A DNA stretch of 64,000 nt from Sphingomicrobium sp. (lineage in GTDB: Bacteria; Pseudomonadota; Alphaproteobacteria; Sphingomonadales; Sphingomonadaceae). The position numbers were made by a program, and so were the translations under genes. The notes beneath the pieces were generated by a model. It worked only from the letters and a program-made list of their open reading frames with translations, made no database searches and was not told the DNA's origin. Location of the stretch: contig JANWLR010000042.1 of the NCBI GenBank assembly GCA_025450755.1, positions 1 through 64,000 of the forward strand. Reading direction: 5' to 3'. Below, one piece after another: positions 59,098-60,833 of this stretch (positions within the stretch are counted from its first letter, which is position 1; every line of letters begins with the position of its first letter).

Positions 59098-59200
59098 CAG
59101 CGTAACAAGTCCCTGTTGTGTATGCGTTTTTCCGGTCTGTCAGTAGCCTGTGGGGTTGCGTCGATTGTGCGGCCTCCCAGTGCCGAGGGAGGAAAGAGCT

Positions 59201-59449
59201 ATGAAAAAACTCATGTTCGCACTCGCTGCGGTCAGCCTGGTCGCGAGCTCCGCGCCGTCGTTCGCAGCGGCCCCGTGCAAGGACTCCAAGGGCAAGTTCG
59301 TAAAGTGCCCAACCAAGCCCGCAGCCGCCAAGCCTGTCGCGGCCCAAAAGTGCCGCGATGCTAAGGGCAAATTCATCAAATGCCCGACCGCTCCGGCGAA
59401 GCCCGCGACCTGCCGCGACGCCAAGGGCAAATTCATCAAGTGCAAGTAG
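59201..59449 (+). CDS. Secreted small protein with three cysteine-flanked lysine-rich repeats
   Basis: An 82-residue protein with a signal peptide (about 1-23, ending SFA|A). The mature part has three copies of the 11-residue unit C(K/R)D(S/A)KGKF(V/I)KC, at nucleotides 59276-59308, 59351-59383 and 59411-59443, separated by alanine/proline/lysine spacers. The six cysteines could form three intra-unit disulfides. It is highly basic, so it might bind nucleic acid, cell wall or lipopolysaccharide (inference). It lies 16 bp before the next gene, which encodes a second repeat protein. Function not known to me. Confidence 0.75.
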   Translation: MKKLMFALAAVSLVASSAPSFAAAPCKDSKGKFVKCPTKPAAAKPVAAQKCRDAKGKFIKCPTAPAKPATCRDAKGKFIKCK

Positions 59450-59465
59450 GAAGAGGGAGGCTTTC

Positions 59466-60095
59466 ATGAACCGTCTAATCCTCGCGGCTGCGCTAGCCGC
59501 CGGCTGCACGCTCGCGTCCAGCACACCTGCACTCGCAGCGCCAAGGAATTACGATTGCTCCAAGCCTGGAAATGCCAACAAGGCGGCGTGCAAGACCGGC
59601 GCCAAGAACGCGCCCAAGGGCACGACCAAGCCTGCTCCGGCGGCCAAAATTGTCGCGCCGGCGAAGCCCGCCAGGGAAGCCAAGGCAGCTCCGGCCGCGA
59701 AGCCGGCGGCCAAGGTTGCGACGACGACCACCACCAAATCGGTCACCCGCAACTACGACTGCTCCAAACCCGGCAACGCCAATAAGGCGCAGTGCAAGGG
59801 TTCGACCACGGTCGCCACCAGCACGACCAAAACCATTCCCGCGCCGGCAAAGCCGGGCATGCTGCAACGGATGAAGAACGCCATGAGCGGCTCGTCGACT
59901 TCGACGCCCCAGCCCGCAACCGCCCCAAAGGCCACCCCTGCAGTACCGGTGAGGCCCGCAACGACTTCTAAGGCGACCGAGAACAACAACCCGGCCGGGG
60001 CGATCGCCCAGTGCAAGGACGGCACTTACAGCCACGCCAAGACCCACACCGGCGCCTGCTCGCACCATGGCGGCGTTGGGAAATGGCTCGGCTGA
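59466..60095 (+). CDS. Secreted DUF3761-type repeat protein
   Basis: A 209-residue exported protein. It has a signal peptide (about 1-25, ending ALA|A), two 17-residue repeats RNYDCSKPGNANKA(A/Q)CK (nucleotides 59544-59594 and 59748-59798), a long low-complexity Ala/Pro/Lys/Thr linker, and a C-terminal DUF3761-like segment AIAQCKDGTYSHAKTHTGAC followed by SHHGGVGKWLG. The ATG at 59466 follows the previous stop after 16 bp with aggga as ribosome site. DUF3761 proteins are exported and uncharacterised. It ends 9 bp before the convergent hemerythrin gene. Confidence 0.78.
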   Translation: MNRLILAAALAAGCTLASSTPALAAPRNYDCSKPGNANKAACKTGAKNAPKGTTKPAPAAKIVAPAKPAREAKAAPAAKPAAKVATTTTTKSVTRNYDCSKPGNANKAQCKGSTTVATSTTKTIPAPAKPGMLQRMKNAMSGSSTSTPQPATAPKATPAVPVRPATTSKATENNNPAGAIAQCKDGTYSHAKTHTGACSHHGGVGKWLG

Positions 60096-60104
60096 GCGGC
60101 CTGC

Positions 60105-60833
60105 TTACTTGCCTGCCCGGCCCACCGGAGGAGGCGGAGCGGTGAACGCAGCCAAGTCAGCCATCCCGAGCGTTCGCTCGATGTCGGCGACCTTGGCCAC
60201 CGCCATGTCGAATCCGTCGCCGCCGAATTCCTTGCGCTCGATATCCTCGAACTGGTCGCCGAGTTCGTCATAGCCCTTCGGCCCGACCGCTTTCTTGAAG
60301 GCGGGAAATATGATCGTGTCCTCGCGAGCGGTGTGTGGCTCGTACATCCGCGAAAAAGCGGTGAGCACCTTCGCCATTGGTGCGGCGTCGGCGGTTGCGA
60401 CGCGGCCCGCTTTCGTTCGGTCGATGATGTAAGCAGTAATCTCCCGCCCGCGTGCATGCTGAGCGAGGAGCGTATCGACCAGCCTCGCAGCTTCGCCGCC
60501 GGCGTTGCGGACGATCGGAAAGATATGCGCCTCCTCCAGGAGCTGCTCGTGATAGTGCTCGCCAAACGCCTGGAAGAGCTTCGCTGCATTGGCCAGCGCG
60601 GCTGCGTCGATCGCGGCGGGGTTGGCGGCGAGCTTCGGAGCGACCTCGCGATAGACGATGAGGACTCGGCGGAGCACGCCATGCTCGCGCATCAGGTCCT
60701 CGTTGCACGTGACCTCGCCGCCTTGCTCCTTGTCCTCGTCGCGGTCCTTGCATCCGCCGAGCGCAAGGGCGGAGCCGGCAAGCGCGACCCCCGCGAGCGA
60801 GACGAGTGCACTCCTGCGGTCCTGGTTTGTCAT
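60105..60833 (-). CDS. Hemerythrin-domain lipoprotein with Tat-like signal
   Basis: A 242-residue protein. The N-terminus has RRSALVSLAGVALA (twin-arginine-like) and a lipobox LGGC at Cys28, so it should be exported and lipid-anchored. The mature part carries a hemerythrin-like diiron set, His in REHG, HxxxE in HEQLLEE, His in QHARG and HxxxE/D in HTARED. Diiron hemerythrins bind oxygen or nitric oxide or sense them. No partner is adjacent. It is divergent from a 200-bp gap and then the kinase gene. Confidence 0.82.
   Translation of the reverse strand: MTNQDRRSALVSLAGVALAGSALALGGCKDRDEDKEQGGEVTCNEDLMREHGVLRRVLIVYREVAPKLAANPAAIDAAALANAAKLFQAFGEHYHEQLLEEAHIFPIVRNAGGEAARLVDTLLAQHARGREITAYIIDRTKAGRVATADAAPMAKVLTAFSRMYEPHTAREDTIIFPAFKKAVGPKGYDELGDQFEDIERKEFGGDGFDMAVAKVADIERTLGMADLAAFTAPPPPVGRAGK

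Follow-up and report, generated by a model that had tools for sequence, protein, structure and literature searches.

The stretch of DNA analysed here, a window of 64,000 nucleotides, contains two short neighbouring genes which code for small cysteine-rich proteins with an export leader. What do these proteins do outside the cytoplasm, and do they do it together? An earlier note on the window had described them as an exported and probably co-expressed pair of basic, disulfide-stabilised repeat proteins that may bind the cell wall or another polymer. The host is a sphingomonad known from a draft genome (2.19 Mb, 84% complete). We followed up this description by comparing both genes with profile and structure collections, related genomes and viral contigs.

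Repeat units of the two proteins

The reading frame of gene 1 begins with the ATG at 59201 and is closed by the stop codon at 59447–59449. Three repeat units had been claimed for its product, and in fact the degenerate unit pattern has three matches in the 2.19-Mb assembly, all of them within gene 1 (Table 1), whereas the reversed control pattern has none. The protein shows the features that define its family, namely an export leader and at least two C-x9-C units with invariant C, D, G, F, and C. Gene 2 contains two copies of a unit with the consensus RNYDCSKPGNANKAxCK (NYDC unit) and ends in a DUF3761 domain (PF12587, E=7.6e-12, 46 bits compared to a curated cut-off of 29), exactly as the note had read it. 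However, the match covers the profile positions 48–81 of 82 only. The N-terminal half of DUF3761 with the motif YxNxxGxxVHxP is absent from gene 2, whereas small DUF3761 relatives such as the protein of locus L061 match the positions 7–81. The residues C-x-D-G...S...G-x-C-S-x-H-G-G, which are invariant in the DUF3761 alignment, are all present in gene 2.

Table 1. Positions of the features discussed in the text, numbered from the first nucleotide of the window
Feature	Position	Strand	Description
Leader hairpin	59173–59192	+	CCTCCC-AGTGCCGA-GGGAGG with GCCGA loop; covers the Shine–Dalgarno sequence of gene 1; once in its own genome
Gene 1	59201–59449	+	Exported protein of 82 aa, three C[KR]D.KGKF.KC units
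Gene-1 unit 1	59276–59308	+	Unit-pattern match
Gene-1 unit 2	59351–59383	+	Unit-pattern match
Gene-1 unit 3	59411–59443	+	Unit-pattern match
Gene 2	59466–60095	+	Exported protein of 209 aa, two NYDC units and DUF3761
Gene-2 unit 1	59544–59594	+	RNYDCSKPGNANKAACK
Gene-2 unit 2	59748–59798	+	RNYDCSKPGNANKAQCK
DUF3761	59979–60086	+	C-terminal half of the profile; Pfam match and confident AlphaFold2 region

Alignments with their relatives show invariant cysteines and glycines in both proteins. As the same units recur in relatives from other genera, the gene-1 and NYDC units are more than chance repeats. Searches of Pfam, NCBIfam, and PHROGs gave no credible model, either for gene 1 or for the NYDC unit. 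The comparison with solved structures yielded weak matches only for gene 1 (to a streptavidin leader and a complex I subunit) and no match for gene 2. The two unit types have no profile similarity to each other, and we rejected a common origin; the profile match between gene 1 and gene 2 stems from the signal peptide. In three loci (L073, L074, L141) we found a variant of gene 2 in which a terminal K[TN]GKxVHYDC unit replaces DUF3761; these variants are located amid genes of cytochrome c maturation (Pfam matches to CcmE, CcmB, and a CcmC-type protein).

Export, charge, and disulfides

Judged from their sequences, both proteins have leaders of the Sec/signal peptidase I type. Gene 1 has no lipobox, and gene 2 is probably not a lipoprotein since the cysteine at position 14 of its leader is replaced by glycine in the related genome G164. 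The number of cysteines in the mature protein is even in 54 of 54 gene-1 and in 31 of 31 gene-2 sequences, where the patterns used for counting required the paired cysteines of the units and the parity thus tests for the absence of extra single ones. All relatives of both genes are predicted to be basic with a pI of 9.2–11, and the host genome encodes DsbA as well as DsbB. Given the even cysteine counts, the basic character, and the presence of DsbA and DsbB, disulfide loops are very likely, and these predictions are in agreement with the exported, basic, disulfide-type proteins of the note. AlphaFold2 models the DUF3761 end with confidence, the remaining parts have low confidence (means of 61), and for the gene-1 units, which the note had singled out for structure prediction, weak two-strand hairpins only were obtained. 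Fold searches with the gene-2 model returned no match. We infer that these proteins are most naturally read as flexible chains bearing disulfide-closed loops.

Small, basic, and exported proteins with spaced cysteine loops could also be precursors of antimicrobial peptides that are freed by cleavage between the loops. We regard this as very improbable, as the units are hydrophilic and not amphipathic, genes for immunity, proteases, or exporters do not recur in the vicinity, and the family searches gave no match of toxin or bacteriocin type.

Pairing and distribution of the genes

Both genes are on the same strand and are separated by 16 bp (59450–59465), the spacing given before, and a simple scan revealed no terminator in this gap. 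Co-transcription is probable. A gene for a hemerythrin-domain protein with an export-type leader (60105–60833, minus strand) is convergent with gene 2 and lies 9 bp from its stop codon.

By profile search, relatives of gene 1 are found in 57 and relatives of gene 2 in 18 of the 351 genomes of the family. Gene 1 is nearly restricted to the family: among 240 genomes sampled from the class, a single weak match was found elsewhere. Among the genomes of the named collection, NYDC proteins occur in sphingomonads and in one member of the Caulobacteraceae, and DUF3761 ends are present in Gemmatimonadota, other Proteobacteria, Acidobacteria, and actinobacteria, for example, Gordonia. Outside of the sphingomonads many DUF3761 proteins have DUF3761-like CKDGTxS...GACSxHGGV segments repeated on similar linkers. 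The loci L168–L208 from Gemmatimonadota and other soil bacteria are of this type and code for exported proteins with several such segments and Ala/Lys-rich linkers.

Of 71 genomes of the genus, six carry gene 2 and ten carry gene 1. Three genomes have both genes (G000, G164, and G198), in all three as tight same-strand pairs and at two different loci. The gaps are 16 bp in the window (G000), 25 bp in G164 (locus L060), and 23 bp in G198 (L062). The window and G164 have the neighbourhood of rpoD, csp, and a GNAT gene in common, but csp precedes the pair in the window and follows it in G164, so that the pair has stayed intact through rearrangement. The pair of G198 is located elsewhere, near genes that by eye resemble imuA, imuB, and dnaE2. 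In other genera gene 1 is near gene 2 in five loci (L139, L140, L164, L167, L214), and in L139, L140, and L167 a small DUF3761 protein adjoins gene 2. With the window, L060, and L062 included, 8 of 13 gene-2/DUF3761 loci have gene 1 no more than 5 kb away, for which random placement would predict about 0.5–1% per locus, and both genes co-occur in 13 of the 351 family genomes compared to 2.9 expected; both figures ignore common descent and overstate the independence of related loci. In G136 a decayed gene-1 stretch directly follows gene 2.

Recurrent pairing had been set as a check on the pair, which passes it: the pairing is real, as seen in these loci and in the three tight pairs of the genus. 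It is not general, since for each gene the majority of relatives occur without the other. This could be taken to mean that both are independent accessory genes of similar style which happened to become neighbours and act each on its own. The unaccompanied relatives, the lack of homology between the two unit types, and the genomes G204 and G197, in which gene 1 alone occupies the same rpoD/csp neighbourhood, speak for this explanation. Nevertheless, we consider it unlikely, because the adjacency recurs in several contexts, the gaps within the genus are tight, and the pair remained unbroken while csp switched sides.

Some further genes were observed repeatedly in these neighbourhoods. Genes of SRAP type (SOS-response-associated peptidase) recur at distances of a few kb from relatives of gene 1 or gene 2 in L061 (confirmed by Pfam), L062, L069, L142, L149, and L250, and DUF5818-type genes are found in L140, L142, and L149. 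A conserved protein of 68–95 aa recurs beside DUF3761 and gene-1 genes (L061, L139, L140, L149, L176, L163), the L061 copy of which has no Pfam match. A membrane protein of 285 aa with sub-threshold profile matches only is likewise found beside DUF3761 and gene-1 genes in L061, L140, L163, and L176.

The leader of gene 1

The hairpin is conserved within the genus. Its exact pattern in the window is also present directly before gene 1 in G173, G190, and G204, and variants of it precede gene 1 in G196, G197, and G164. Compared to 120 other leaders of the same loci, these seven gene-1 leaders form more stable folds (mean z of −2.2 versus 0.0, p about 2e-4 by resampling) and differ in the pairing of the Shine–Dalgarno sequence (p about 0.01), statistics that are suggestive only, as the motif was noticed before testing and the seven leaders are related. 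The position of the hairpin over the ribosome-binding site suggests that gene 1 may be under translational control.

Searches for other signals gave no candidate. EcfG general-stress promoters were rejected with one match in the window compared to 2.3 expected by chance, and so were LexA-type boxes, which occur at chance level and distant from the pair. No sigma-70 promoter was found near the pair, and the comparison with Rfam yielded just one sub-threshold match to ybhL, elsewhere than at the pair.

Relatives in temperate phages

Relatives of gene 1 are present in twelve viral contigs. In the sphingomonad prophages L241, L247, L249, and L251 the relative adjoins a gene for a secreted staphylococcal-type nuclease, a divergent one which is confirmed by Pfam for L247 and L251 and assigned by sequence for L241 and L249. 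Endolysin-type genes are also near gene-1 relatives: Amidase_2 in L247, peptidoglycan-binding domains in L241 and L251, and Glyco_hydro_108 in L250; in addition, there is one weak spanin match. In L242, L243, L244, and L246 an integrase, recognised by sequence, is close by. Genes with a DUF3761 domain are present in 69 viral contigs. Among 83 neighbours taken from part of these contigs, the most common identifiable ones are repressors, anti-repressors, and integrases, and we therefore rejected the idea that the phage DUF3761 proteins are pure lysis genes. In L264, L265, and L271 a CI-type repressor is encoded upstream of a small exported DUF3761 protein on the same strand. Genes that are expressed in lysogens commonly lie downstream of such a repressor; in other phages DUF3761 genes are near lysis or tail genes. 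Some viral contigs have DUF3761 fused to bacterial SH3 domains, which fits a location at the envelope.

The position downstream of the repressor raises the question whether the pair derives from a prophage system of superinfection exclusion. The exported loops, with or without the secreted nuclease, would then act in the periplasm and keep the DNA of a second phage from entering. The enrichment of repressors, anti-repressors, and integrases and the adjoining nucleases would suit such a role, and the repeat protein Ltp, encoded at a position of this kind, acts by such a mechanism (PMC3952083). On the other hand, Ltp is a lipoprotein with negatively charged active repeats, neither protein has a match among the anti-phage defence profiles of PADLOC-DB, the DUF3761 genes near lysis or tail genes do not conform to this arrangement, and the window pair itself is outside any prophage. 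We therefore think that this explanation is improbable.

We have still less confidence in the proposal that the proteins disturb the envelope, promote the release of phages or the formation of vesicles, and were retained by the host. An argument for it is the Halomonas phage Phm3, in which a secreted DUF3761 protein is encoded between endolysin and holin and the disruption of each of the four genes of the lysis cassette reduced phage release and vesicles, although these data do not separate the role of the DUF3761 protein from that of the rest of the cassette (PMC11131426). The endolysin-type genes near the gene-1 relatives of L241, L247, L250, and L251 point in the same direction. However, most of the identified phage neighbours of DUF3761 are not lysis genes, and the chromosomal pair has neither a holin nor an endolysin beside it.

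Proposed function of the pair

The reading that we tentatively prefer is that of an exported, disulfide-looped, and basic envelope pair which is accessory and partly prophage-borne, with contact to a polymer or nucleic acid as its likeliest mode of action. Both proteins would be exported by the Sec pathway as soluble and strongly basic proteins and would function in the periplasm or at the envelope. There DsbA and DsbB would oxidise short loops, each closed by a cysteine pair with 9–14 residues between the cysteines and strung on flexible linkers of Ala, Lys, Pro, and Thr; the chain of gene 2 would terminate in the small folded DUF3761 domain. By their positive charge the loops could then weakly contact an anionic envelope polymer or nucleic acid at several points, and both proteins may act together. 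Both families appear to have been disseminated as accessory genes, in part by temperate phages. The pair discussed here occupies a variable slot between rpoD and the GNAT gene, with the hairpin over the ribosome-binding site possibly adjusting the translation of gene 1. Our doubts about this envelope pair concern mostly its mode of action and the joint function; as the models outside DUF3761 are of low confidence and fold matches are lacking, no ligand was identified.

A bolder proposal, to which we give little credence, is that the loop families and DUF3761 form a widespread and hitherto undescribed envelope module of temperate phages, used for exclusion or release, which was taken into sphingomonad chromosomes and whose first gene is controlled by the hairpin.

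The prophage link of the relatives and the conserved hairpin in the leader of gene 1 are new compared to the earlier note. DUF3761 is widespread, yet named in a single paper of the literature searched, and the motif strings of gene 1 and the NYDC unit were not found there. The pair is compact and recurrent and has relatives in the lysogeny and lysis regions of phages, which makes the family amenable to plating, vesicle, and binding assays.

Comparison with known systems

The closest described family is DUF3761 (PF12587) itself. Its members share with gene 2 the export, the paired cysteines, and the C-x-D-G-T-[YF]-S...G-x-C-S-x-H-G-G segment, and the relatives from Gemmatimonadota share the Ala/Lys-rich linkers as well. 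In contrast, the remainder of gene 2 consists of the NYDC units and linkers for which Pfam has no model.

Like gene 2, the Phm3 protein combines a signal sequence with a C-terminal DUF3761 (PMC11131426). The chromosomal pair differs from the Phm3 cassette in that lysis genes do not adjoin it and that it has the NYDC units and the gene-1 partner.

Ltp from phages of Streptococcus thermophilus is a superinfection-exclusion lipoprotein whose repeats act via their negative charges (PMC3952083). The likeness consists in the export of a repeat protein and in a gene position within the lysogeny module, which is shared by some phage DUF3761 genes. On the contrary, the products of gene 1 and gene 2 are predicted to be basic cysteine loops, and an Ltp-type lipobox or membrane anchor is not conserved in them: Cys14 of the gene-2 leader varies and gene 1 has none.
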